DNA of 32,978 nt, taken from IMG/VR virus record IMGVR_UViG_3300007352_000036, positions 1 through 32,978 of that record; one strand, given 5' to 3'. Of the stretch, positions 4,148 to 32,978 are shown piece by piece. The DNA is from a virus. How positions within the stretch are numbered: position 1 is the first letter of the stretch; every line of letters starts with the position of its first letter. The notes beneath the pieces are model-generated. The model was not told the origin of the DNA, did no database searches, and saw nothing but the letters and a program-made list of their open reading frames with translations. A program made the position numbers and the translations under genes.

Positions 4148-5992
4148 CTACGCCTCCTGCTCCAGCCGCCTGCGGACCGCATCGGCGATCATCGGGGCCA
4201 GCACCTGCTCCGCCTCGTACCGATCCCCCAGGCTGACCGCGGGCGAATAACTAAACTGGATGATGATCCCGCCTTCCGCCAACGCATCGCTCCTCGACCT
4301 GATGGCGGGCGCGCTGTCGAGTGCCGTTGTCGTGGCTGTTGCCAATGCAGGCGTGAACGCATTCGGCGTCAACGTATCGTTCCAGCCTCCGATTGTCCCG
4401 AGTGCTAGGTTTGTGCCAATGTAGTCGTGCATCAACTTCGACTCTGAATGGATTCCGAAGAACCCCGCCAGCACATCCGCAATCGCCTGCCCAAACGAGA
4501 CGATCTGATTCAGCGCCCAGCTCGCCATGGACATCAAGCCGTTCACGATTCCCTCTGCGATCATCCTTCCAAGATGACCCCAGTCCGTCGTCGTGAAGAA
4601 ATTGATGACGCCGTCAATCATTCCCTTCACAATGATCTTGATGTTGTTCCACGCGGTCTTCAACACTTCCCCGATCAACTTCCAGTTTCGGTCCCATATC
4701 TTTCGCAGTTCCTCGCCGAACCCATGCCAATCCCCCTGAAAAGCCAGGGAGAATAGTCTGAATATGCTCTTGATATTTTCAACCGCCGTGTTGAACCACA
4801 GCTTGATCAACTCCCACGTGTTATGCCACGCCTGCGAAATGAACCCCAGTTTGCCAGCGGTAAAATCGCTCATGAACTGCATCCCTGCCTGCAATATCCC
4901 CTTCACAAAATCAATCCCCGCCCTCGTCTTCTCCTGGATGCCTCCCCAGTTTTCTGTCCATGCTCGATACAGCAAATACCCGATGGCGATCAACGCCGCA
5001 ATGACCGCGATCACGATCAACACAGGCACAGTGATTGCCCCGATCACCCCGATGATCGCGCCGAGCGCGGTAATCAGCGTACCGATGATTACCAGCAACG
5101 GCCCCAGAATCGCCAGCGCCGCCCCGATTCCAATGATCCATTTCTGCTGTTCAGGGCTGAGCGCCTGGAACTTCTCGATCAGTCCGCTCAACCATTGCAC
5201 GAATTGCAACGCATACGGCAACAACTGCACCCCCAGCGCCGCCGCCGCATTCTCGAACTCCGCCTTCAAAATTCTCTGCTGGTTGGCCAGTCCATCCGAT
5301 GTCCGCGCAAAATCTCCCGCCGCATTTGCCGATTGTTCCAGAATAAGTGCGTAGCGCGCCTGTGCCAAAGCGGCCGCGGTGAGCGAACCATCCGCTCCCG
5401 CCAGTCCCATCTCCATCGCCTTCGCTTCCACCGCCGTCTGGCTTAAGTTGATACCCAATGTCCTCAGCGGTTCCACCTCCCCCACCAACCCCGAACGCAG
5501 TTTCTCTAACACCTCGGTCGGGTCCATGTTGTTGAACGAAGCCAGGTCGCTCGCCAACTGCACCAGCCCCATGGACATATCCGCCGAAGCATCCTGCCCC
5601 AGCCCCATCGTAGTAAACAGGTTGCCAAACGTTCCCGCCGCCGAGAGTGCTGTGTTCTGGCTCATCCCCATCGCCTGCGCTGATGTCGTGCTCCAATCCA
5701 GCACGCCTCCAGACATCTCCCCAAAAACGACCATGACCTTATTCTTCGTTTCCTCCAGGTCGCTCGCATAGTTGATCGCCGCCATCCCTGCCACCGCCAT
5801 CGGCAGGGTTAGAAACGTGGTTGCCTTCATCCCCAGATTCGTAATGTCCCCGCCCACACTCTTCATGCTCTGGCTGACGCGTCCAGACCATGTCTGCGTC
5901 GTTCGTTCCGCCGCATCCATGGCCTGCGTAAAAGCCGCCGCATCCGCAATCAGTTTTACTGCCAGTGTCGCAATCGTTGTCATAGTTTTCAC
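4148..5992 (-). CDS. Tail tape measure protein
   Basis: 614 aa. A helical scaffold inside the tail tube that sets tail length and is ejected before DNA. The N-terminal region (FTQAMDAAERTTQTWSGRVS) and residues ~60-270 (LEETKNKVMVVFGEMS, GLVGEVEPLRTLGINLS) match the TP901-type core. Residues ~284-345 are a long hydrophobic stretch with two to three membrane-type segments (IIGIGAALAILGPLLVIIGT, then IVIAVIAALIAIGYLL). At about 0.15 nm per residue the tail would be near 90 nm. The start is uncertain: GTG at 5992 has GGGGA seven bases upstream, while the ATG at 5983 has no good ribosome site. It follows the gpG/gpGT pair as expected. Confidence 0.9.
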   Translation of the reverse strand: MKTMTTIATLAVKLIADAAAFTQAMDAAERTTQTWSGRVSQSMKSVGGDITNLGMKATTFLTLPMAVAGMAAINYASDLEETKNKVMVVFGEMSGGVLDWSTTSAQAMGMSQNTALSAAGTFGNLFTTMGLGQDASADMSMGLVQLASDLASFNNMDPTEVLEKLRSGLVGEVEPLRTLGINLSQTAVEAKAMEMGLAGADGSLTAAALAQARYALILEQSANAAGDFARTSDGLANQQRILKAEFENAAAALGVQLLPYALQFVQWLSGLIEKFQALSPEQQKWIIGIGAALAILGPLLVIIGTLITALGAIIGVIGAITVPVLIVIAVIAALIAIGYLLYRAWTENWGGIQEKTRAGIDFVKGILQAGMQFMSDFTAGKLGFISQAWHNTWELIKLWFNTAVENIKSIFRLFSLAFQGDWHGFGEELRKIWDRNWKLIGEVLKTAWNNIKIIVKGMIDGVINFFTTTDWGHLGRMIAEGIVNGLMSMASWALNQIVSFGQAIADVLAGFFGIHSESKLMHDYIGTNLALGTIGGWNDTLTPNAFTPALATATTTALDSAPAIRSRSDALAEGGIIIQFSYSPAVSLGDRYEAEQVLAPMIADAVRRRLEQEA

Positions 5993-6056: not shown

Positions 6057-6458
6057 TTAGGTCTTCTTCGCCGCTGCCAAAGCCGAGAAATACGCATCCA
6101 CCTTCATCGCGATCTCCATCTTCTTCCTCATCTCGGCGTCTTCATCCTCTTCACCCCCCTCTCCAAATTCGTTCTCTGAATTTGGGGAGGGGTCGGGGGT
6201 GGGGCCAAACCTCGGCAAAAAATCCTCAGGCTTCGCAACAGGGTCGCTCTCCTTCGTCCGCGTCATCGCGTTCACCGTTGCCGCCGCCAGGATGCCCATC
6301 CGCAGGTCAGCCCGTTCCTCGCCGAACGGCTCCATCTCCGCATACACCGACCATTCGAGCAACTGCTGGCCTGTCATCCTCGCCAGCATTCGGTCCACGT
6401 TTGGTTGCCCCAGCGCCAGCGCTAATCGGTAGGCGAATCGCCGTCTGGGGTCTCGGAG
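6057..6458 (-). CDS. Tail assembly chaperone, -1 frameshift extension (gpGT-type T domain)
   Basis: This frame is entered by a -1 ribosomal frameshift from the upstream chaperone gene. After the slippery A AAA AAC, the shifted frame reads LRDPRRRFAYRLALALGQPN and continues VDRMLARMTGQ, without a stop for 133 codons. The segment FAYRLALALG..., MTGQQLLEWSVYAEMEPFGE and RADLRMGILAA matches the DUF4035 family found as T domains in gpGT-like products. The fused protein would be about 258 aa. The in-frame GTG at 6398 would truncate the conserved motif, so independent initiation is unlikely. Near the C-terminus (6156-6204) a family A element encodes PTPDPSPN...FGEG. The long form recruits tape measure protein to the tail initiator in lambda; the same role here is inferred. 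Confidence 0.8.
   Translation of the reverse strand, partial: LRDPRRRFAYRLALALGQPNVDRMLARMTGQQLLEWSVYAEMEPFGEERADLRMGILAAATVNAMTRTKESDPVAKPEDFLPRFGPTPDPSPNSENEFGEGGEEDEDAEMRKKMEIAMKVDAYFSALAAAKKT
6156..6204 (+). repeat. Family A palindromic element, copy 3 (inside CDS)
   Basis: Arms CCCCTCTCCAAATTC and GAATTTGGGGAGGGG with the G-rich tail, read in frame within the gpGT extension as PTPDPSPN...FGEG. Confidence 0.9.
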
Positions 6459-6939: not shown

Positions 6940-7365
6940 CTAACTAACCGTCACCGCGCCGCTGATCTTCAGCGTAATGTCAGCGGCCAGTTTCCCCTTC
7001 ACAGCCGCTTTCGGTTTGAATTCCGTCAACATGGCAGTGAACGAAAACGTTTTGATGCTGTTCGGCAGCACGATCTTCCAGTTCTTCCTGGTCTTGTTCA
7101 GGATGGCCGCCAGCATGCCCGTTGTCTCGTCGTGCGTCGCGTGGGTTGGAACCCAGTTGATCGGAAACTTCGGTTCGCCGCCGCTCAACAGGATTCCGAT
7201 ATGCTCATCCCACCCGCCGCTGTCATGGCTCGTCACCTCTTCTGTGAGTTGCTTGATCCCTGGCAGGTCAATGTCGCCCACCTCGGCAACAGTGGTAAAC
7301 GTTTCAGGCGATCCCCCATCGCCCATCTTCACAAAAGTCCCAAAGGACGAAAGTGCTTGTGTCAT
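6940..7365 (-). CDS. Major tail tube protein
   Basis: 141 aa. Small beta-rich protein directly before the tail chaperones, the usual place for the tube protein. The N-terminus contains a pattern common in siphovirus tube proteins (VAEVGDIDLPGIKQLTEEVT, then SHDSGGWDEHIG) that precedes the long tube loop. The central LSGGEPKFPINWVPT and C-terminal FSFTAMLTEFKP and ADITLKISGAVTV segments fit the two-sheet tube fold. Polymerised hexamers would form the tail conduit around the tape measure. No C-terminal Ig-like extension is present. Confidence 0.85.
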   Translation of the reverse strand: MTQALSSFGTFVKMGDGGSPETFTTVAEVGDIDLPGIKQLTEEVTSHDSGGWDEHIGILLSGGEPKFPINWVPTHATHDETTGMLAAILNKTRKNWKIVLPNSIKTFSFTAMLTEFKPKAAVKGKLAADITLKISGAVTVS

Positions 7366-7386
7366 GTTTCATCTCCTTGTTTTTCT

Positions 7387-7435
7387 CCCCTCTCCATTTG
7401 CGTTCTTTGCAAATGGAGAGGGGTCGGGGGTGGGG
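7387..7435 (+). repeat. Family A palindromic element, copy 5 (abuts stop codon)
   Basis: Arms CCCCTCTCCATTTGC and GCAAATGGAGAGGGG. Its G-rich end touches the stop codon (TAA, 7436-7438) of the upstream gene, and its other end lies ~20 bases before the tail tube start. Confidence 0.9.
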
Positions 7436-7792
7436 TTAGAGCGCCATCACCGCAAACTTCACAGCCGCGTTCTCGGCTTCGACATAGATCTTGCCGTCGC
7501 TTTGCTTCCATCCCGCGTCCTTGAAGCGGAACGCCGCGATCTCGCTCGCGCCGATGGAATAAGTGGTGACATCTCCCGTGCGCTTCTTATCGTCTGCCAC
7601 CGAAGTGAACGTAACGGTGTACGCGCTCGCGCCCGTGTTCCAGGCCACCAGGATGTCGTCACCCGCTCCCGCAAACTGGTTCTTGTTCGCCACATCCGCC
7701 GCCTCGAACGTCAAGTCCAGCAGGTTGGCGGTCACGGGAAGGGTCGGATACGGACCCTGCAACGTGCTCTTGGTAATACTTGTTCTTGCCAT
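7436..7792 (-). CDS. Small beta-rich virion protein, possibly decoration or tail-associated
   Basis: 118 aa. Located between the neck genes and the tail tube. The sequence begins MARTSITKSTLQGPYPTLPV and continues with DLTFEAADVANKNQFAG, ILVAWNTGASAYTVTFTSVA and IAAFRFKDAGWKQSDGKIYV. I recognise this as a small phage structural family that recurs beside capsid or tail genes, with an expected compact beta-sandwich. Its exact role (decoration, head-tail seal or fibre base) is not established from the sequence. Confidence 0.7.
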   Translation of the reverse strand: MARTSITKSTLQGPYPTLPVTANLLDLTFEAADVANKNQFAGAGDDILVAWNTGASAYTVTFTSVADDKKRTGDVTTYSIGASEIAAFRFKDAGWKQSDGKIYVEAENAAVKFAVMAL

Positions 7793-13622: not shown

Positions 13623-13636
13623 ACTTCTCCTTTACT

Positions 13637-13685
13637 CCCCTCTCCAAATTCGTTCTTTGAATTTGGGGAGGGGACGGGGGTGGGG
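13637..13685 (+). repeat. Family A palindromic element, copy 11 (abuts stop codon)
   Basis: Arms CCCCTCTCCAAATTC and GAATTTGGGGAGGGG. It directly abuts the head morphogenesis stop (TGA 13686-13688) and ends 14 bases before the protease start at 13622, which has its own AAAGGAG. Confidence 0.9.
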
Positions 13686-14657
13686 TCACTGTTTCTTCAC
13701 TCTCGTCAACAAGTCGCATCTACACCCAGGGAACCGCAATGGCCTCTGGTGTCCGCTCGGAAATGACGCATCCAGCTTGATCCAGCCAGCCGCCGCGTTC
13801 GCCTTGCAACCATCGGAGACCTTATCGTCCCCGACCGTGTCCCAAAACTTCTCCATATCCAGGCCTGCCGCTTCCAATTCTTGTGCCGCCTGCAACCGTC
13901 CTTCGGTGTATGCGTTCCCTGTTTCGGTCACGGCAATCAGGTGTGCGCGGCTTTCAATGTGCGCTTGCGGCTTGCCGATCGCAAACTCCTCGTACCGCTC
14001 GATCAACGCCTCCGCAATTCGGTCATACGACCACCCCTCTTTGGTCGCCTGCTCAAGGATGGTCTCGATGTAATCCCGCGTCGTCTCGTTGATCTTCGTC
14101 ACCATCCTTGCGCCGTACTGATCCAGGTACGCCACTGCGCTCGGGTTCACCAATGTGAACGATATGCCAGCGCCCAAACTCGCGATCTCTTCCAGTGCGC
14201 CTGCCAGAAGCGACTTCTTCACCGCATCGTCAATCGGCTTCGAGAACAACATCAGCGTCTTCTGCGCCACCGCATGGAACACAAACATCCACTCCGTTGG
14301 CAGGATGGCCTCCGATAGCTCCCTTTCTCCATCTGTACTCAGATGGGGAAAGGGCGGGGGGATAGGGGCCTCTCCCCTCTCCAAATTCGTGCTCTCCGAA
14401 TTTGGGGAGGGGCTGGGGGTGGGGCTAAACCGATCCCGAAACTTCCTCAACCCTCGCTCGAACTGCCTGCCCTGCTCGCGGAACGCTTTCCGCATTGCCA
14501 GTTCAAGACTCCGCTCGATCCTCTCCCTGCGCTTCATCTTCTGCGACCGCCGCACGGCCTCCACGAACTCCTCAGCCAATTTCAACAAGACATCACTCTC
14601 CTCGAGCAACGTCTTGGACTGCGCGCTGACGACTGCGGACTGATCACCGATTCCCAT
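13686..14657 (-). CDS. Phage head morphogenesis protein (SPP1 gp7 / Mu gpF type) with two repeat inserts
   Basis: 323 aa. The C-terminal half carries the family hallmarks: HLIAVTETGNAYTEGRLQAA, then DMEKFWDTVGDDKVSDGCKA, and the ending HQRPLRFPGCRCDLLTRVKK with paired cysteines. The family consists of minor head proteins that bind the portal and are ejected or stay inside the capsid. Residues ~78-112 are two back-to-back family A elements read as SPTPSPSPN...LERGE and PIPPPFPHLSTDGERE. They separate a basic N-terminal helix domain from the conserved domain. The start overlaps the portal stop by 14 bases. Confidence 0.85.
   Translation of the reverse strand: MGIGDQSAVVSAQSKTLLEESDVLLKLAEEFVEAVRRSQKMKRRERIERSLELAMRKAFREQGRQFERGLRKFRDRFSPTPSPSPNSESTNLERGEAPIPPPFPHLSTDGERELSEAILPTEWMFVFHAVAQKTLMLFSKPIDDAVKKSLLAGALEEIASLGAGISFTLVNPSAVAYLDQYGARMVTKINETTRDYIETILEQATKEGWSYDRIAEALIERYEEFAIGKPQAHIESRAHLIAVTETGNAYTEGRLQAAQELEAAGLDMEKFWDTVGDDKVSDGCKANAAAGWIKLDASFPSGHQRPLRFPGCRCDLLTRVKKQ
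14321..14368 (+). repeat. Family A palindromic element, copy 12 (inside CDS)
   Basis: Long-tail variant with CCCTTTCTCCATCTG and CAGATGGGGAAAGGG, ending GGGGGGATAGGGG. It is read in frame within the head morphogenesis gene. Confidence 0.9.
14374..14424 (+). repeat. Family A palindromic element, copy 13 (inside CDS, tandem with copy 12)
   Basis: Arms CCCCTCTCCAAATTCG and CGAATTTGGGGAGGGG, five bases from copy 12 in the same orientation. It gives SPTPSPSPN...LERGE in frame. Confidence 0.9.
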
Positions 14658-16368: not shown

Positions 16369-16379
16369 TGTTTCCTTCC

Positions 16380-16428
16380 CCCCTCTCCAAATTCGTTCTT
16401 TGAATTTGGGGAGGGGACGGGGGTGGGG
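16380..16428 (+). repeat. Family A palindromic element, copy 14 (one base from stop codon)
   Basis: Arms CCCCTCTCCAAATTC and GAATTTGGGGAGGGG. It lies between the large terminase stop (TAA 16430-16432) and the portal start at 16368. On the transcribed strand it ends in GGAGAGGGG just before AAGGAAACAATG. Confidence 0.9.
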
Positions 16429-16429
16429 T

Positions 16430-18013
16430 TTACACAGGTGATATGCTCACCCGCTCCTCGAAAATTACTTCTTCGTCATCGTCGTTCTTCAACTGCTCCA
16501 CGATCTGACGCAGTTGGTTGTACGCGCTCGATGCCGCGTCCACACGGTCCTTGAATCTGCCCTTCGGAAATGCCGCCATCTCATCCAGGAACGCATCGTT
16601 CCACGCGCCTCGCACCACGCGCACACGCCCGCCCTTGGCCTTCGTGGCCAGCATCCCTGCATAGAATTCTTTACTGCCTGTTACCTGGTCGAATGTTCCG
16701 ATCAATCCGTTATCGGCCAGCAAATTGTTAAACGCCTGCGCACTGTCCAATCCAGCCGAGCCAGGGTCTTGCGGATGCCAGATGATGAACGGTCCATCAT
16801 TGGCATAATCTTCCTTCCCCAACGAAACCATGAACTCATCCCGTTCCGCAGATGACAATTGCTCCGCAACGGTGTGCTCGATATAAATAAAATCGTCCTT
16901 GCCCCAACTCATCTTCACGCCGCTCGTGCGCGCCCCGCCCCCAGAAGTGGCCGCCTTATCCCAGGCGCGTATCCGCGCCCATACGTCACGCGGCGGAGCA
17001 TCCACGATTGTGAACCAATCTCGCTTGAACATATTCCCCTCTTTGGAAAACGGGCTCTGCTGATACAACGCCTCGAAATCGTACAGCCCCACATCCGCCT
17101 TCGTGGATGCCAGCCATGCCTCGTCATACCACTCTGGACACAACGCCGCCCCACCCGACCTTCCCAACGGATCAGCCAGCGGAAGGAACACACCATCCCG
17201 CATCATCTTGCGCTGTTCGTCCTCAGTGGGATACTTCTCCAGCGCCAGCGCAGGCATGCACACGATCTCGTACTGCGACGTCAGCGGATCACTAACCATC
17301 CTCTGCATCAACCTCCCCGCTAAATCATCGGGATGCCACCGCGTGTGGAAGATGACCACCGCCGCATTCGGCCTGAGACGAGTGCGCGCCGCACTTTTAA
17401 ACCAGTCATCCACCAGGTCGCGCCGCCCCTCGCTTTCGGCTTCCTCACGGTTCTTGAACGGATCGTCAATGATGAATAGATGCGCGGGCAAGCCCGTAAT
17501 ACCGCCGCCCACGCCCGCCGCCTTTACCCCGCCTCGGTAGGGTTTTGCAAGGTCCCATGCCTCGGTCGAGCGTGAATCGGATGACAGCTCCACAGGCCAG
17601 ATCTTGTTGCTCTTGCTCCCGAAGATCGCCTGGTATTCTTCGGTCGTGACCATGTCGCGGATATGCCTGCTGTGCGTGGTGGCCAGGCTCTCACCATAGG
17701 ACGTCAGGATGATGCGGCTATCGGGTAACAATCCCAACAGCCATGCAGGGAAGTGACGGCTTGCCAGTTGACTCTTGCCATGCTGGGGCGGCATGAAAAT
17801 CATAAGACGTCCGATGCCGCGCTTGCCTCCGCTGGCAATGTATAAAGCCACCTGCTGGAGTTTTGCCGCCAACAAGCGAATGTGCGGCTGATCCTCGTAA
17901 CGCGGATCCACGAACTGGCAATAAGCCATGAAATTCCTGCGTGCCTTCACGCGCAGGTCTTTCTCTGTCCTGGCTTCCGATGGTGTCATCAGCAGGTCAG
18001 CCGCTGGAAACAT
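16430..18013 (-). CDS. Terminase large subunit
   Basis: 527 aa. The ATP-driven packaging motor. Walker A is PPQHGKS at residues 75-81, after LMIFM. Walker B is HLFIIDDPFKNREEAES with D183-D184 and the catalytic acid nearby. The IILTSYGESLATTHSRHIRD segment is the usual adenine-binding/C motif region. The C-terminal nuclease domain begins at IRAWDKAAT (about residue 344), whose aspartate should bind metal, and continues with MSWGKDDFIYIEHTV. The start ATG 18013 has GAGGA upstream and overlaps the small subunit by 17 bases. Confidence 0.95.
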   Translation of the reverse strand: MFPAADLLMTPSEARTEKDLRVKARRNFMAYCQFVDPRYEDQPHIRLLAAKLQQVALYIASGGKRGIGRLMIFMPPQHGKSQLASRHFPAWLLGLLPDSRIILTSYGESLATTHSRHIRDMVTTEEYQAIFGSKSNKIWPVELSSDSRSTEAWDLAKPYRGGVKAAGVGGGITGLPAHLFIIDDPFKNREEAESEGRRDLVDDWFKSAARTRLRPNAAVVIFHTRWHPDDLAGRLMQRMVSDPLTSQYEIVCMPALALEKYPTEDEQRKMMRDGVFLPLADPLGRSGGAALCPEWYDEAWLASTKADVGLYDFEALYQQSPFSKEGNMFKRDWFTIVDAPPRDVWARIRAWDKAATSGGGARTSGVKMSWGKDDFIYIEHTVAEQLSSAERDEFMVSLGKEDYANDGPFIIWHPQDPGSAGLDSAQAFNNLLADNGLIGTFDQVTGSKEFYAGMLATKAKGGRVRVVRGAWNDAFLDEMAAFPKGRFKDRVDAASSAYNQLRQIVEQLKNDDDEEVIFEERVSISPV

Positions 18014-20832: not shown

Positions 20833-21231
20833 TTATTTCTTCGCGCGGACGGGCTGGAAACCCTTGACGGTCTTGTGGATGCCGAAAGCGCTCAAGATGG
20901 AAACGAGTAGGGTCAGCGCAATAGCCACCGATGGCGCGGCCGCGGCAGGGATGGCCGAGAGCAGTGCATTGAAGAAATAGACAACGGTGGTGACGATCGA
21001 CGCCGTGAGCACTGCGGCCCATCCGCCCAGGTCCTTGCCAAACAGGGTCGAGAGCGACTTGAGACCAGCGGTCACGAGAAAACCGATGCCAGCCGCCAGC
21101 AACGCTTCCAACTCGGTCGGAAGCACCACCTCGCCAACGGGCGGTTCCTCGCCCTGCGCGAACGCGGGCATCACGAAGAACGCGGCCACGATCAGCACGA
21201 CCAGAAGAACGAACAAACGATTGACTTTCAT
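20833..21231 (-). CDS. Holin-like protein with signal peptide
   Basis: 132 aa from ATG 21231, preceded by AAAGGAG at good spacing. Extension farther upstream only adds non-coding sequence. Residues 5-25 form a signal peptide (LFVLLVVLIVAAFFVMPAFA). Residues ~40-125 contain three membrane-type segments (LEALLAAGIGFLVTAGL, WAAVLTASIVTTVVYFFNAL and PSVAIALTLLVSILSAFGI). The C-terminus is basic. This fits a holin whose export could be timed. It is the first gene after the terminator and directly precedes the XhlA-like protein and the endolysin. Confidence 0.75.
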   Translation of the reverse strand: MKVNRLFVLLVVLIVAAFFVMPAFAQGEEPPVGEVVLPTELEALLAAGIGFLVTAGLKSLSTLFGKDLGGWAAVLTASIVTTVVYFFNALLSAIPAAAAPSVAIALTLLVSILSAFGIHKTVKGFQPVRAKK

Positions 21232-21296: not shown

Positions 21297-21339
21297 GAAA
21301 ACAAAAAGCGCCCGCCGTGCAAAATGCACGACGAGCGCT
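21297..21339 (-). terminator. Rho-independent terminator
   Basis: On the minus strand AGCGCTCGTCGTGCA and TGCACGGCGGGCGCT pair with two mismatches around a short loop and are followed by TTTTTGTTTT. It separates the early/middle genes from the late operon. Confidence 0.75.
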
Positions 21340-21365
21340 CACTTCGTCAAAAACGGCCCCGCCAT

Positions 21366-21420
21366 TAGGCGAGATGGCTTCCTGCCATCATCGCCTATGT
21401 CAGTGAAACGAGTCACTGAC
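21366..21420. ncRNA. Two-hairpin structured element, copy 1
   Basis: Hairpin 1 pairs 21366-21378 with 21384-21397 around loop TTCCT with one bulged A. Hairpin 2 pairs GTCAGTGA with TCACTGAC around AACGAG. It matches copy 2 (23646-23700) with no gaps, and all stem differences preserve pairing. It lies between a stop codon (21465) and the terminator, in transcribed non-coding sequence. Confidence 0.7.
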
Positions 21421-21464
21421 GTTGCTAGGCCTGCGGAGTTATTTAGTTGTGCCTCAATTTTAAA

Positions 21465-21770
21465 TCAGGTTCGCCTGCGCGTCAAGTGTTGGGCGCAACT
21501 TTTAGAACGTGTGTTTTTTGATCGTCTTATTACTCTCATCCTTTCTCGGCTGGCTTTTCGATGAACCTCGCAATATTTGAATTGGCCAGATGGAGCGCCG
21601 CATTGGACACAGAGATGGTTTTCTCTACGGCGCAGAATAAGCCGCTCTACGCGTTCCTTTGCTTTCAGACAGAGTCCGCCATTCTTCCCGCAATGCGGAC
21701 ATCTCCCCCGCGCTCTCATCTTGATCTGCCATCTTCGTTGGCGAGAAACCTTTTCCTTCTTCTGGATCAT
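21465..21770 (-). CDS. Small basic zinc-binding protein
   Basis: 101 aa. Start overlaps the upstream stop as ATGA (21767-21770). Very basic, with two cysteine pairs and further ligands (C24, C27, C34; C54, C57, C67, H70: GRCPHCGKNGGLC, and HLCVQCGAPSGQFKYCEVHR). The pattern is of a small phage nucleic-acid-binding zinc protein. The C-terminus is Arg-rich (residues 70-101). It is the last gene before the terminator. No specific family is recognised. It shares its transcript with the 21767-22192 gene and is therefore under the structured leader. Confidence 0.7.
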   Translation of the reverse strand: MIQKKEKVSRQRRWQIKMRARGRCPHCGKNGGLCLKAKERVERLILRRRENHLCVQCGAPSGQFKYCEVHRKASRERMRVIRRSKNTRSKSCAQHLTRRRT

Positions 21771-22192
21771 ACCGCCGCCCTCGCCGCCTTCAATTCTTCG
21801 CCGATCCAGCCAACGGGCGAGAGCACCATCTTATGCTCATCCAGATACGCGCTGACGATCAACCACGTCAGCCTCTTATTTGCCAGGACCGACCGCAACA
21901 ACATCTCCAGTGCTTCGCGATCCGCCTGCATGATCTCAATGTCCGTCCTGTCTGGCCGCGCCTTCCCGCTCATCGGCGTCAAAATCGTACGACGAGACGA
22001 TGCTCCTAGTTTCAATACATCCGCGTCCCGCATCGTCTGGATGTGCTTCACGAAATCCCGCTTCGTCTTCCCCTTCTTGCCTGCCAGCAACTTGGCCACT
22101 TCATCGGCGGGCATGCTCTTGACGCGCTTCAAAAGTTCTTTGCGCCTTATCAGCGCTTCAACGTTCCTGCTTGCTTTACCTTTCGTGTTCAT
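21767..22192 (-). CDS. Small basic phage protein under a structured leader, function unknown
   Basis: 141 aa from ATG 22192. The site AGGAG lies nine bases upstream and a TTG three codons earlier is less likely. The protein begins MNTKGKASRNVEALIRRKEL, with a helical Lys/Arg-rich N-terminus, then AKLLAGKKGKTKRDFVKHIQ and a second half of alternating acidic and hydrophobic residues (EALEMLLRSVLANKRLTWLI). It has no zinc pair. It could be a nucleic-acid-binding regulator, but no family is recognised. The gene is the first after the promoter at 22374-22402, and its ribosome site can be masked by the leader. Confidence 0.65.
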   Translation of the reverse strand: MNTKGKASRNVEALIRRKELLKRVKSMPADEVAKLLAGKKGKTKRDFVKHIQTMRDADVLKLGASSRRTILTPMSGKARPDRTDIEIMQADREALEMLLRSVLANKRLTWLIVSAYLDEHKMVLSPVGWIGEELKAARAAV

Positions 22193-22194
22193 TT

Positions 22195-22367
22195 GTGCCA
22201 ACTCCTTTTATAACGCAAAGTCCTGCCACAGAACCGACATCGACGGGAGTTGGCACTCTTGCGGCGACACGTATCTCTGTGGCAGGAATCTGCCTGCGAA
22301 TATAGATTGTGGTGAAGACGCTATCGGTTAAATAATGCGTGCCGCCTTCACAGTGAGTGCCAACTCT
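22195..22367 (-). promoter_or_regulatory. Structured 5' leader with mutually exclusive helices (riboswitch-like)
   Basis: On the transcript three segments compete. The 5' arm (22355-22366, GAGTTGGCACTC) is perfectly complementary over 12 bases to the middle arm (22247-22258). The middle arm also pairs over 11 bases with the segment containing the ribosome site (22195-22205, GGAGTTGGCAC). A further 11-base helix encloses the middle arm (22222-22232 with 22276-22286). So pairing of middle with 3' hides the ribosome site, while pairing of 5' with middle frees it. Predicted transcription starts at 22367, exactly at the 5' arm. Confidence 0.65.
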
Positions 22368-22373
22368 GCGGTC

Positions 22374-22402
22374 ATTTTACAACCAATCCTTTCGTGGGTC
22401 AA
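22374..22402 (-). promoter_or_regulatory. Promoter TTGACC-N17-TAAAAT
   Basis: On the minus strand -35 TTGACC (22397-22402) and -10 TAAAAT (22374-22379) are spaced by 17 bases, each matching five of six consensus positions. The predicted start is about 22367. A TTGACA just upstream (22424-22429) could be an alternative -35 with a weaker -10. The LexA-type palindrome lies between these. Confidence 0.6.
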
Positions 22403-22405
22403 TCC

Positions 22406-22419
22406 AGAACGCTCGTTCT
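22406..22419. promoter_or_regulatory. Operator-like palindrome AGAACGCTCGTTCT (LexA/DinR-type GAAC-N4-GTTC)
   Basis: A perfect GAAC-N4-GTTC palindrome abutting the -35 of the downstream promoter, and between -35 and -10 of a possible second promoter. It matches the Gram-positive LexA core. A one-mismatch version (31489-31502) occurs in the other main regulatory region. Confidence 0.5.
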
Positions 22420-22425
22420 ATTTTG

Positions 22426-22863
22426 TCAAGCGTCAAAGAAATGAATTGGCGTAATAAAAGAGAAATCTCCAGCTTTTATTTTTTGTTTGATCTCAGGCCT
22501 CAACCCCCATTCATGAACATGATTCAGAGAAACACTCGGCCCCCCAGCACCTTGCGCCCACTCGCCTTTTCCAGCAAGAACGAGTTCACTCGCGCAACTA
22601 TGGCAACGAAAATGGCCATCCGAGCAGGAATGTACCTGGCAATAGTTCAAGCAGAAACAACAATCCCTGATTGTTGCTGGCGCTACTCGTATTTGAATCA
22701 AGTCGCTCATTCTGCCATCCACTGCAACACACGGAGCAGGCAACAACGCGGAACACTCTGAGCAATAAAGACAATGCTCTTTTCCGCCAGGAAGACTATC
22801 GGTGTCAAAGAATTCTATGTTGCCACACTCGGCACAAACAATTTCAATAAGATAGTCGCTCAT
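22426..22863 (-). CDS. Cysteine-rich double zinc-ribbon protein
   Basis: 145 aa. Overlaps the upstream stop as ATGA (22860-22863). Two zinc sites are visible: an N-terminal one with C10, C13, C31 and C34 (VCAECGNIEF and HCLYCSEC), and a central cluster RDCCFCLNYCQVHSCSDGHF with RCHSC, which looks like a phage zinc module. The C-terminus (WGLRPEIKQKIKAGDFSFIT) is helical. Base composition is lower in GC than in the late operon. It may bind nucleic acid. The gene ends directly upstream of the promoter region. Confidence 0.7.
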   Translation of the reverse strand: MSDYLIEIVCAECGNIEFFDTDSLPGGKEHCLYCSECSALLPAPCVAVDGRMSDLIQIRVAPATIRDCCFCLNYCQVHSCSDGHFRCHSCASELVLAGKGEWAQGAGGPSVSLNHVHEWGLRPEIKQKIKAGDFSFITPIHFFDA

Positions 22864-23030
22864 TCTTCCTCGGCATTATGCGTTTCAAACACTTTTTTTC
22901 CATCAACATAGATTTCAAATTCATAAAGCGAATCATCAAACCAATTCACGATATTTTCTTCAAACCACATCAAATCGTCTATCTTTTTACGTTCTCCAGA
23001 CGAAATCTCTATTGCGTAAATTTCTATCAT
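22860..23030 (-). CDS. Small acidic protein (56 aa), unrecognised
   Basis: A 171-base reading frame not visible as a long frame. The ATG at 23030 is preceded by GGAGG four bases upstream. The stop overlaps the next start as ATGA. The product begins MIEIYAIEISSGERKKIDDL, continues MWFEENIVNWFDDSLYEFEI and ends with an acidic tail (NAEEE). AT-rich codons differ from the late operon. Good coupling signals on both sides support it as real. Function unknown. Confidence 0.65.
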   Translation of the reverse strand: MIEIYAIEISSGERKKIDDLMWFEENIVNWFDDSLYEFEIYVDGKKVFETHNAEEE

Positions 23031-23080
23031 TCTTCCTCCGTCTCGTTTTCATACCTTGGCTCCATCGTAAACTTGACTGG

Positions 23081-23272
23081 CTACCCATGATAACTCCCAT
23101 GAAATACTAATCTGGATGCAATAAATTCCCGCCAAACACTTTCTGCCATCAGAAACACGCGCTCGCCATCTTTGCCGCAAATATGAATACCCGTTTTAGC
23201 CTTTGCACCACAATTCGGGCATATCTCTCCGATGACAAGATTACCAGTCACTGTTGTAGTAAGTTTATCCAT
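23081..23272 (-). CDS. Small zinc-ribbon-like protein (63 aa)
   Basis: The ATG at 23272 is preceded by GAGAGG at good spacing. An ATG at 23299 lies two bases after the preceding stop but has no clear ribosome site. Residues include C18, C21, H30 and C32 (EICPNCGAKAKTGIHICG), a plausible zinc ribbon. The C-terminus is WREFIASRLVFHGSYHG. Unknown function. Part of the zinc-protein run. Confidence 0.6.
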   Translation of the reverse strand: MDKLTTTVTGNLVIGEICPNCGAKAKTGIHICGKDGERVFLMAESVWREFIASRLVFHGSYHG

Positions 23273-23300
23273 TTCATCCTCTCGTCTGCTTGTCTCCATT

Positions 23301-23630
23301 TTACTCCGCCAAATACGTGGACGCCAGCAACTCCGCCACATCAGGCGCGGGATGCCACTCCTCGATACACCCACAGCCAGCCACCGAGCACCGCCACCGC
23401 ATGGACAAAATCCTGCCATCCACCGCGCCGCATACCTCGATCTCTGCTGGCCGCTCGATCTCTAGGTCCACAGCCTGCCGAAACAGGGCTAGGCGCGTCG
23501 TGAAATACCGCAGAGACTTCCCGTTCACCTGCAACTCGGCCTTGACCCGTTCTGTCACGCCAAGCACGTGGCCATTCGCACATTTCCACTGCTTCGCGCC
23601 GTCCAATAACTGCCCGTCCAGATTTTCCAT
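23301..23630 (-). CDS. Small phage protein with Cys/His motifs, unknown function
   Basis: 109 aa. Start ATG 23630 has GGAG seven bases upstream and lies 15 bases after the two-hairpin element copy 2. The N-terminus QWKCANGHVLGVTERV has a CxxxH pattern. A second cluster is RWRCSVAGCGCIEEWHP. Central residues (SLRYFTTRLALFRQAVDLEI) suggest a helix. The family is not recognised. The structured element in its leader may affect its expression. Confidence 0.65.
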   Translation of the reverse strand: MENLDGQLLDGAKQWKCANGHVLGVTERVKAELQVNGKSLRYFTTRLALFRQAVDLEIERPAEIEVCGAVDGRILSMRWRCSVAGCGCIEEWHPAPDVAELLASTYLAE

Positions 23631-23645
23631 TCGTTATCTCCGTCC

Positions 23646-23700
23646 TGGACAAGGCGGCTTCATGCCGCCATTGTCCGTGTCAGCGACATGAGTCGCTGAT
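23646..23700. ncRNA. Two-hairpin structured element, copy 2
   Basis: Hairpin 1 pairs GGACAA-GGCGGC with GCCGCC-A-TTGTCC around loop TTCAT. Hairpin 2 pairs GTCAGCGA with TCGCTGAT around CATGAG. It aligns base for base with copy 1 over 55 positions, 38 identical, with six compensated pairs. It sits 15 bases before a start codon. Confidence 0.7.
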
Positions 23701-23711
23701 GCAATCACACT

Positions 23712-23762
23712 CCCTTCCCCTAAACGCGCTCTTCCGTTTGGGGGAAGGGTCGGGGATGGGGG
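23712..23762 (+). repeat. Family A palindromic element, copy 15 (long variant, intergenic)
   Basis: Arms CCCTTCCCCTAAACG and CGTTTGGGGGAAGGG with a tail ending GGGGATGGGGG. It fills most of the space between the two-hairpin element and the stop at 23774. Confidence 0.85.
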
Positions 23763-24178: not shown

Positions 24179-24810
24179 CTCGCCTCCCGCTCCCCAGGCT
24201 CGATCCACCCCAACCCGAGAAAATTCAGAAAATCAATCTCCTCAGGCATGGACAGTTTCGTACTCGGATCAGGGTTTTTCTCCTCTCGATCGCCCAGCCA
24301 CACCGCCCCATCCTGCACCCGATGCGTGTTCTTCATCGCGCCGCCATTGCGGACCCGCGTCACACACCAATGGCTGAACTCCGCAGGCCCCGTCCGTATC
24401 ACCATCTGCACGCCCCACTCCGCAGGCGGCGTCACCAGAAACAGATCAACTTTTACTGGATGAATGAGGGTTGTACTACCGCCCCAAGGCTCACCATCAA
24501 CGCCAAATTCCTGTGGATCAATGATCAGTTTTTTATACTTCTCGCCATCCTTTTCGCGCTGAAGTTTATTCTCCTGAAACAACTCTTCGAGAATCGCATC
24601 CAGTTTTGTCTTGAACATTTTCGGAATTGGCTTCCCAAACTCCGCCCGCGGACGGGGGACAGGCGTCAGATCAGGGATCGCCACGATCTCGATATCCTTC
24701 ACATCCGCCTTCCCGCGTCGGATCGAGCCAGCAATCTCAATGCGCGTACAGACAGGCCGCAAGCACTCCACCAGTTCCTCGGCAATCTTCAAAGCATCAG
24801 CGTGTTTCAT
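24166..24810 (-). CDS. Stand-alone family X polymerase-like nucleotidyltransferase
   Basis: 214 aa from ATG 24810, which overlaps the upstream stop as ATGA and has GGAGG five bases upstream. The palm motif IEIAGSIRRGKADVKDIEIV matches the pol beta/X fold: GS near residue 28, then D39 and E41, with a third acid D122 in KVDLFLVTPP. The thumb-like VQMVIRTGPAEFSHWCVTRV follows. There is no N-terminal 8 kDa lyase or PHP domain. Possible roles are DNA repair, end addition or nucleotide transfer. The D-x-E pair in place of the usual D-x-D is noteworthy. Confidence 0.8.
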   Translation of the reverse strand: MKHADALKIAEELVECLRPVCTRIEIAGSIRRGKADVKDIEIVAIPDLTPVPRPRAEFGKPIPKMFKTKLDAILEELFQENKLQREKDGEKYKKLIIDPQEFGVDGEPWGGSTTLIHPVKVDLFLVTPPAEWGVQMVIRTGPAEFSHWCVTRVRNGGAMKNTHRVQDGAVWLGDREEKNPDPSTKLSMPEEIDFLNFLGLGWIEPGEREARWTR

Positions 24811-25433
24811 CGCATCCTCCGTGCTTCCCATGCTGTCTTGAATTCTTCGTCCGACAAATCTTCTGGCGGGCCATCATAAATATCTAAGTGCGGAACTTCA
24901 AAACTAAACCTAGTAATCCGATCCGCATAAACATCCTCGAATTTTCTCCCGACTAGACAACGTGTTTTCCCCCACGTTGTTCCAGAAAATATATAAACTT
25001 TTCTTAGGTTTGAAGCGCTCCACATCTTCACCCCAGGGATCACCTCCACTCTCCTCGGGTCCCACCAGATGATCTCGAAATCATCCAGCATCTCATCCCG
25101 ATACTGCTTGAAGAAATCGAAAAACGCCAGCAGATCAGCAAAACCATCTCGCTCTGCCAACTCGCCTACCTCCCGCAACGACATCCACTCATAAACTCCC
25201 GCCTCATCTGCCCTCAATATTTTGCGCTCCCACGGGTACATAATGATCGGCTCGACCTTGATACACGGAGCAATAGCGAACCGAACCACATTCTTCGTCC
25301 GCCAATTCACAAACATCTGAATCCGATCCCCTGGCACGGTCGGTCTCTTCACCCTCCGCCTGCGAACCGTGTGCGGCTTTGCCCCAATCAAAATCGGAAA
25401 CACAAACCTAGTTTGAAATGGATACGCTGGCAT
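24807..25433 (-). CDS. ASCH-domain protein with extra C-terminal domain
   Basis: 208 aa. Start ATG 25433 has GGAGAG five bases upstream. Residues ~1-115 resemble an ASCH domain (FPILIGAKPHTVRRRRVKRP, then TVPGDRIQMFVNWRTKNVVR), a beta-barrel found in RNA- or modified-base-binding proteins of phages. The next segment DEMLDDFEIIWWD could end that domain. Residues ~130-208 (KMWSASNLRKVYIFSGTTWG, then KTRCLVGRKFEDVYADRITR) look like a second small domain, so this may be a fusion. It overlaps the polymerase X-like gene by four bases. Confidence 0.7.
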   Translation of the reverse strand: MPAYPFQTRFVFPILIGAKPHTVRRRRVKRPTVPGDRIQMFVNWRTKNVVRFAIAPCIKVEPIIMYPWERKILRADEAGVYEWMSLREVGELAERDGFADLLAFFDFFKQYRDEMLDDFEIIWWDPRRVEVIPGVKMWSASNLRKVYIFSGTTWGKTRCLVGRKFEDVYADRITRFSFEVPHLDIYDGPPEDLSDEEFKTAWEARRMR

Positions 25434-27302: not shown

Positions 27303-27360
27303 CCCCCTTTCTCCAAACGAGTTCTTCCGTTTGGGGAAAGGGGGACGGGGGGATAGGGGG
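27303..27360 (+). repeat. Family A palindromic element, copy 17 (long variant, intergenic)
   Basis: Arms CCCCCTTTCTCCAAACG and CGTTTGGGGAAAGGGGG with a tail ending GGGGGGATAGGGGG. It separates the ParM-like and ParR-like genes, with its purine-rich end next to the ParR-like start. Confidence 0.85.
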
Positions 27361-32919: not shown

Positions 32920-32920
32920 A

Positions 32921-32978
32921 AGATCGGAAGAGCGTCGTGTAGGGAAAGAGTGTAGATCTCGGTGGTCGCCGTATCATT
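32921..32978. other. Illumina TruSeq universal adapter (sequencing artefact)
   Basis: The last 58 bases start AGATCGGAAGAGCGTCGTGT and end GGTGGTCGCCGTATCATT, the exact reverse complement of the full-length TruSeq universal adapter. They are not biological. The minus-strand frame beginning MIRRPPRSTLFPYTTLFRS is a well-known adapter artefact in protein databases. Confidence 0.97.

Follow-up and report, generated by a model that had tools for sequence, protein, structure and literature searches.

The window, meaning the whole stretch of viral DNA analysed here (32,978 nt), carries two copies of an element built from two hairpins, and the genes around both copies lie on the minus strand. On that strand, copy 2 ends 13 nt upstream of the start of an ORF (23301-23630), and copy 1 is preceded by a sigma-70-like promoter (21485-21457) and followed by a strong terminator-like hairpin (21340-21306). 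This bears out the initial annotation, which had placed one copy before a start codon and the other before a terminator. Gene contexts were taken from our own codon-based gene caller, not from longest-ORF calling. The features of the two sites are:

21365-21422, minus strand: copy 1, the double-hairpin unit of 58 nt, an exact insertion into a phage leader relative to the related phages L003/G108 and L002
21400-21419, minus strand: first hairpin of copy 1, 7-8 bp with a 6-nt loop (fold and covariation)
21367-21396, minus strand: second hairpin of copy 1, two 6-bp stem parts separated by one bulged base, with a 5-nt loop (fold and covariation)
23645-23701, minus strand: copy 2, double-hairpin unit (extent from family conservation; model score; position)
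23680-23699, minus strand: first hairpin of copy 2 (fold and covariation)
23647-23676, minus strand: second hairpin of copy 2, with bulged base (fold and covariation)
21457-21485, minus strand: promoter-like sequence upstream of copy 1, matching 10 of 12 consensus positions; conserved in G108, without the element there
21306-21340, minus strand: terminator-like hairpin downstream of copy 1, 16 pairs and a T run; conserved in G108 and L002, without the element
20833-21231, minus strand: gene downstream of copy 1 and the terminator; without PHROG match; 63% identical to its ortholog in G108
23301-23630, minus strand: gene downstream of copy 2; without PHROG match; its ortholog in phage G102 (47%) is likewise preceded by an element copy

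The comparison of the two copies was reproduced exactly as first described. Positions 21366-21420 and 23646-23700 align without gaps and are identical at 38 of 55 positions. Twelve of the 17 differences form six two-sided compensated pairs (21367/21396, 21369/21394, 21371/21392, 21374/21388, 21375/21387, 21404/21415), two others alter one side only, giving G-T (pairs 21366/21397 and 21399/21420), three are unpaired (21382, 21407, 21409), and no stem is broken. The true unit, set by the empty site described below, is slightly longer than this alignment (58 nt, 21365-21422), and family conservation (columns 5-62) independently supports the same ends. An architecture descriptor matched both copies and found no structure in 60 dinucleotide shuffles; its one extra match in the window, at + 6017, lies inside another palindromic repeat. 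DNA folding z-scores of the copies range from -7.2 to -8.2. Covariance model R1 scores copy 1 at 87.7 bits, a value given by construction, and R2 scores copy 2, which was among the sequences behind its model, at 79.5 bits. Rfam gave no gathering match in the window and none over the copies in three loci at E up to 1, and blastn, within its sensitivity, matched an 81-nt stretch with one copy to no annotated phage or plasmid.

Across 62 distinct copies, 18 of the 19 pairs covary and 96.7% of cells are paired, and on every measure 0 of 500 shuffles were as high. These data strongly support selection on the structure of the element, as the initial annotation had proposed. Two hairpins in tandem make up the unit, with a bulged base in the second, and compensatory change maintains both. 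Conservation across copies extends to several unpaired bases, namely TC in loop 1, the bulged T, and GA in loop 2, which suggests specific recognition.

Searching further genomes and contigs with a covariance model built from the copies, a check suggested at the outset, uncovered a real family of ~58-nt two-hairpin DNA elements dispersed in bacteria and their phages. In the host's taxonomic family, 30 of 152 genomes gave matches, with up to 35 copies per genome; so did 24 of 400 genomes sampled from the order and 9 of 400 sampled from the phylum. All nine belong to the order, so that this phylum sample holds no element outside it. Phage contigs carry up to 14 copies each. As expected of a REP-like multicopy intergenic palindrome, 96 of 105 distinct bacterial copies lie outside predicted genes; some copies fall inside ORFs, tandem and nested copies occur, and no target motif is conserved among copies. 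Identical bacterial copies were collapsed for this count (109 to 105). Contig G107, a near-duplicate of G104, and contigs G205, G208 and G213, which have the same copies as G201, were left out of the counts, and G204 was kept in the phage placement count, though the stretch around its copy shows 100% protein identity to G201.

Copy 1 is a clean insertion into a pre-existing phage leader: where the window has 58 nt, the related phages L003/G108 and L002 have two bases, and the surroundings persist without the element (the terminator in both G108 and L002, the promoter in G108). Such a recent insertion points to a mobile repeat and not to a conserved RNA gene. The cleanest insertion site shows no sign of a target duplication. 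Copies are likewise present or absent at other homologous intergenic places. The rplU-rpmA site is occupied in G055 and empty in all five congeners; L156 has five copies and its relatives L159 and L160 (90% and 82% identical in one protein) have none; L161 has copies and its 84% relative L162 has none. Presence differs at most orthologous phage junctions, the majority of which lack the element. Some copy positions are common to diverged phages (window/G102, G103/G105, G104/G209, G201/G211), and thirteen copies in tRNA-Glu leaders are kept in seven genera, which together suggest long retention at some sites. The tRNA-Glu places were found in 137 of 152 genomes; 30 were examined, one of them too short to read. 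Among the recurring neighbour genes of bacterial copies, two gene sets correspond to these leader sites.

Placement differs between phages and bacteria. Outside three doubtful contigs, all 53 phage copies are sense to the genes, and among the 35 intergenic ones 22 end 7-14 nt, and 27 within 45 nt, upstream of a start codon. On the clear phage contigs, copies are thus sense and usually just ahead of a ribosome-binding site. Bacterial copies are random to gene direction, with both flanking genes sense in 16 cases and both antisense in 26. The initial annotation had held that a location unrelated to transcription would speak against its reading; we found such a location in bacteria and not in phages.

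Orientation in bacteria tends to follow GC skew, with moderate support. In 11 of 12 multi-copy bacterial contigs the copies lie on a single strand, and on the element strand third-position GC skew is positive for 50 of 76 contigs (p=0.008). The figure is 28 of 34 for contigs with skew above 0.03, a threshold picked post hoc, and 17 of 18 for viral contigs, including three with genes running the opposite way. A plain sign test of strand bias gave 42/76 (p=0.42), the Wilcoxon test p=0.02, and the 20-kb subset 25/40 (p=0.15); in three contigs of genus g8 the bias is reversed. A skew ratio of 63:20 counts copies, not independent contigs, and is weaker at the contig level. Since the coding strand is the G-rich strand in most phages, the sense orientation there could reflect RNA selection.

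The placement of the phage copies invites an explanation as a cis-acting phage RNA, in which each copy, as an element of the 5' leader, would control the downstream cistron by binding a protein, the ribosome or RNA polymerase. The series of promoter, two hairpins and terminator at copy 1 fits this idea, as does the excess of G-U over A-C on the sense strand of phage copies (40 versus 8). That excess shrinks to 12 versus 6 when collapsed by phage lineage, and we dropped the argument for RNA-strand selection drawn from it; in DNA, too, G-T pairs better than A-C. The same leader and terminator occur in two related phages that lack the element, most orthologous junctions are free of it, and bacterial copies are random to transcription, and we consider a general cis-acting RNA quite unlikely. 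In an antiterminator version, copy 1 would let polymerase pass the terminator at 21340-21306 in the manner of the HK022 put RNA. The window copies resemble put as it is described in PMC9378689: about 70 nt, two bulged stem-loops, two similar copies in one phage, one of them just past a promoter; put binds the zinc-binding domain of the RNA polymerase beta' subunit and suppresses termination (PMC9378689). In our element, two stem-loops stand between a promoter and a terminator at copy 1 only, and the element does not belong to the promoter-terminator module of related phages but was inserted into it (G108, L002). Unlike put, it also reaches 14 copies per phage contig and has bacterial copies unrelated to transcription. 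The put-like interpretation of copy 1 is thus not supported. The start-associated sequences of cluster K mycobacteriophages (SAS/ESAS) are similar in that they recur a few nucleotides before many phage start codons, nearly all in one orientation, and ESAS adds inverted repeats (PMC3203893). In that account SAS measures 13 bp, is non-palindromic, lies close to the start codon and is rare in the host, whereas the present element has 58 nt and two hairpins and is dispersed in hosts.

Closer parallels are found among mobile palindromes. REP, BIME and REPIN sequences are described as short, intergenic, many-copy palindromes with bulged hairpins, some of them in ORFs, and REPs are thought to be processed as single-stranded DNA (PMC3733652, PMC6006769). 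A strict REP family mobilised by a RAYT (TnpA-REP) would account for the intergenic dispersal, the GC-rich bulged hairpin and the copies in ORFs; hairpin-bulge-hairpin REPs are reported for one RAYT subclass (PMC6006769), and 147 of the family's 152 genomes have Y1_Tnp genes. Being nearly universal, these genes cannot discriminate carriers of the element, and we dropped a RAYT link by gene presence. We found no gene mobilising the element when Y1_Tnp presence was compared across the 152 genomes. Among the Y1 places listed, at least one contig is shared with a copy (G168:C39, ~16.3 kb apart), and none of these places showed a REPtron arrangement. Of 115 copies, no more than 2 have the REP tag GT[AG]G or CGTC 0-2 nt 5' of a hairpin foot, whichever foot, strand or tag is considered. 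Our element further differs in joining two unlike hairpins, always in one order and orientation, into a single unit, and in its abundance in phages and before start codons, REPs being described as lying mostly after genes (PMC3733652, PMC6006769). Strict membership of the REP family is therefore very unlikely. A dispersed hairpin that has no enzyme of its own and spreads through template switching, replication errors and recombination at single-stranded hairpins would agree with the lack of a transposase tied to the element, the tandem and nested copies and the lack of a target motif. We regard it as rather unlikely: the unit has sharp ends on which empty site and family agree, and the conserved loop 1, bulge and loop 2 bases suggest specific recognition. 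Integron attC sites carry R'' and R' boxes (RYYYAAC ... GTTRRRY); such boxes were found in 0 of 115 copies with 20-nt flanks on either strand, and we rejected this candidate.

Both window copies are likely members of a mobile, dispersed ~58-nt double-hairpin element common to Anaerolineales chromosomes and their phages. Where the initial annotation had left a choice between an RNA and a mobile palindromic DNA, the clean insertion of copy 1, the dispersed copies and the empty bacterial site favour mobile DNA; an RNA as general function is disfavoured by the bacterial copies and by the promoter and terminator that exist without copy 1. The element is probably a REP-like double-hairpin mobile palindrome, moved as single-stranded DNA. 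Its folded single strand would be recognised by the mobilising machinery, given that conservation covers the structure and some unpaired bases but not the flanks, and that the cleanest site shows no target duplication. Insertion may have a strand preference tied to replication, by analogy with IS200/IS605 on the lagging-strand template. In densely packed phage operons, a copy would be tolerated solely in the gap that separates a stop codon from the following ribosome-binding site; lying there, copies would belong to the 5' leader and may have acquired a use. At individual sites, in phage leaders and tRNA-Glu leaders, an RNA role is possible.

The double-hairpin elements (DHE) of fungal mitochondrial DNA (Paquin, Laforest and Lang 2000, as cited in PMC10085805) offer a further comparison, by description and with no sequence relation claimed. 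According to PMC10085805, DHEs are potentially mobile; both consist of two tandem GC-rich hairpins, mainly intergenic and common to several species, and our element also varies in presence at homologous sites. It differs in lying in bacterial chromosomes and phages instead of mitochondria, and in its bulged base, wide compensatory change, strand preference and clean empty site. Tentatively, it could be the prokaryotic counterpart of DHEs: a gene-less mobile unit travelling between Anaerolineales and their phages, which an enzyme would recognise on the lagging-strand template in the form of two folded hairpins of single-stranded DNA. In phages it would serve as a portable 5' leader carrying or abutting the ribosome-binding site, and in several host genera it would have become a fixed leader of the tRNA-Glu transcript. 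In the literature searched, we found no described double-hairpin unit with a sharp empty site common to a bacterial order and its phages.

Mobile palindromic repeats are already known from bacterial chromosomes and mitochondria. The present family adds a caution, in that strong covariation and placement ahead of start codons, commonly read as the mark of a riboswitch-like RNA, can arise from a proliferating DNA hairpin. Because phages are small and compact, their insertion histories are readable, and the phage copies would make the mobilising mechanism testable.

The window is a phage contig (C22 of a 3.94 Mb genome in 149 contigs). The minus strand carries all of its genes according to our own gene finder, and PHROGs profiles recognised a large terminase, matched in 2372 phage records, and an endolysin. 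The double-hairpin unit is described here as read on the minus strand, and both copies are intergenic:

21365-21422, minus strand: copy 1 of the double-hairpin unit
23645-23701, minus strand: copy 2 of the double-hairpin unit

The two copies and the alignment proposed in the initial annotation were borne out exactly, and its tally (six pairs changed on both sides, two that became wobbles, three differences at unpaired positions) was reproduced exactly. Besides the two copies, a structure descriptor picked up a single additional match in the window; it had none in 60 dinucleotide shuffles. At the right end of the window (32920-32978), the last bases are absent from the contig of its own genome; their translation is a peptide that we take to match a known sequencing-adapter artefact.

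Scanning the GTDB collection for an exact pattern gave 13 loci, all in MAGs labelled Chloroflexi, Anaerolineae or Anaerolineales. A first covariance model, built on the two window copies, matched 16 of 101 genomes with E values up to 0.5; a second, built on 65 matches and applied at E 0.001, matched 30 of 152 genomes from the host's taxonomic family (up to 35 copies per genome), 24 of 400 at the order level and 9 of 400 at the phylum level, every one of these within the same order. In IMG/VR, two scans by pattern returned 8 and 24 stretches. The second model had strong matches in 7/8 records of the first viral set, the eighth (G108) reaching only E 0.36, and matches in 14/14 of the second set, as expected from the selection of these records.

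In a set of 62 distinct copies, two-sided changes occur at 18 of 19 pairs and 96.7% of cells are paired, against 26 to 54% for slid structures. None of the covariation measures was reached by any of 500 shuffles (0/500). Because the structure guided the alignment, the test leans in the structure's favour; even so, with 203 two-sided cells observed versus 38 in shuffles, the effect is not subtle. Unpaired bases are also conserved: TC in loop 1, the bulged T (51/62) and GA in loop 2 (60/62 and 58/62). Conservation spans alignment columns 5 to 62; bacterial copies have little in their flanks, and phage copies just a purine bias there, which is the ribosome-binding site. Copies from different genomes or contigs have a mean identity of 0.65; for copies sharing a genome or contig the mean is mostly 0.69 to 0.93 (exceptions: viral record G211, 0.60; bacterial genomes G010, 0.63, and G033, 0.54; the window, 0.68), a pattern consistent with local proliferation in many lineages, not all.

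In some copies a stem or the bulge holds a nested insert of ~21 nt; these inserts are hairpin-like themselves and resemble one another:

G101 (viral), 14063-14146: copy with nested insert
G211 (viral), 24786-24869: copy with nested insert
G210 (viral): copy with nested insert
L210 (tRNA-Glu leader of bacterial genome G050): copy with nested insert

Comparison of filled and empty sites points to insertion. Among related phages with a long contig, G108 is the closest (terminase 73% identical), and its counterpart of the gene that follows copy 1 is a 63% identical ortholog. Its leader matches that of the window at 51/60 nt on the left, all 36 nt beside the junction being identical by eye; the junction itself holds 58 nt in the window versus two bases in G108, followed on the right by ten identical bases and a conserved terminator hairpin. 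Another relative, L002 (terminase 77%), is empty at this site in the same way. Since two relatives are empty and one is filled, the simplest history would be insertion of copy 1 in the window's lineage; no target duplication is visible there between the window and its empty relatives. Other phage comparisons agree in kind, with rougher junctions: phage L156 has five copies, against none in its relatives L159 and L160; phage L161 has copies, its relative L162 none. In bacteria, genome G055 has a copy immediately 5' of the rpmA ribosome-binding site, with ~30 extra nt adjoining the unit, where 5/5 other genomes of its genus have a short empty junction.

In bacteria, 96/105 distinct copies lie outside predicted genes; 42 lie between two same-direction genes, 16 sense and 26 antisense (p=0.16), and for six a sense start codon is within 45 nt. 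In viral contigs, 53/63 are sense with their neighbours, and the ten antisense copies are confined to three short contigs, possibly of host origin. Given gene calls from our simple finder, with approximate starts, 22/35 sense intergenic viral copies end 7-14 nt 5' of a start codon, and 18 sense copies lie within predicted ORFs, many in the 3'-terminal part of the gene upstream. The presence of a copy mostly differs between orthologous phage junctions; shared ones are window copy 2/G102, G103/G105, G104/G209 and several of G201/G211 (all viral records). Sense placement of phage copies before ribosome-binding sites may reflect selection, strand preference or the sole available space.

A second palindromic repeat family, with a C-rich arm, a variable palindrome and a G-rich arm plus tail, has 16 copies by pattern in the window, in a single orientation and many within ORFs. 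Its copies often lie right beside the double-hairpin unit (at window copy 2 and in G102, G207 and G209). Examples from the window are:

2068-2126: second palindromic repeat
6149-6207: second palindromic repeat
7380-7438: second palindromic repeat
13630-13688: second palindromic repeat
16373-16431: second palindromic repeat
23711-23757: second palindromic repeat
27304-27350: second palindromic repeat

Elsewhere in the window, a leader of ~180 nt (22374-22192, minus strand) follows a good promoter-like site (22402-22374). A 9-nt sequence near its start recurs at the ribosome-binding site, and an intervening complementary stretch could pair with either (folding z-score -2.8, 0/200 shuffles). The leader could sequester the ribosome-binding site, and resembles an RNA switch upstream of ORF 21767-22192.

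Thirteen of the 105 bacterial copies, from 10 genomes and 7 genera, end 2-12 nt 5' of a gene for tRNA-Glu; both anticodons are represented, and the copy is antisense to the tRNA in every case. They sit between a -10-like box and the tRNA, and would therefore be predicted to form the leader of its transcript. Most of the 29 readable upstream regions (one locus per genome) are without the unit, which was seen by eye, whole or partial, in 5/29; the window's own genome apparently has the second hairpin alone. The association may be either a hot spot or an old inheritance. One bacterial copy (L111, 3013-3075) directly adjoins a tRNA-Ser(gct) gene on the gene's 3' side, and a T-box leader match slightly under the Rfam gathering score (L120, 3591-3837, minus strand) is located shortly after a tRNA-Glu gene with a copy in its leader.

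Counted per copy, the element strand is G-rich in 63 cases and C-rich in 20. Per contig, at least 300 nt from the element, skew is positive in 42/76 (p=0.42; Wilcoxon 0.02), at third codon positions in 50/76 (p=0.008), and in 28/34 (p=0.0002) when only contigs beyond a skew of 0.03 are counted, a cut-off set after the fact; a 20-kb subset gives 25/40 (p=0.15), and the coding strand, in the same contig-level test, 29/76. All copies share one strand in 11/12 multi-copy contigs, part of which tandem duplication may explain. The G-rich strand carries the element in 17/18 viral contigs, in three of which the genes run the opposite way. Together these counts give moderate support to a replication-linked strand preference, like that described for IS200/IS605 elements in PMC6006769.

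The most economical account of the double-hairpin unit is a mobile palindromic repeat whose two hairpins form one unit. It is similar to REP elements in dispersal, but failed a test for the REP tags. It is similar in anatomy to the DHE of fungal mitochondrial DNA (Paquin et al., 2000, as cited in PMC10085805), but is not mitochondrial, and our literature searches returned no description of it. Because of the conserved structure and unpaired bases, the strand preference and the lack of visible target duplication, we infer a candidate single-strand mechanism through which the unit may have moved. In L159, another short repeat occupies gene junctions (~4930-4990, 7000-7075, 2530-2760) where its relative has double-hairpin copies, so that one repeat type seems to replace another at such junctions over time.
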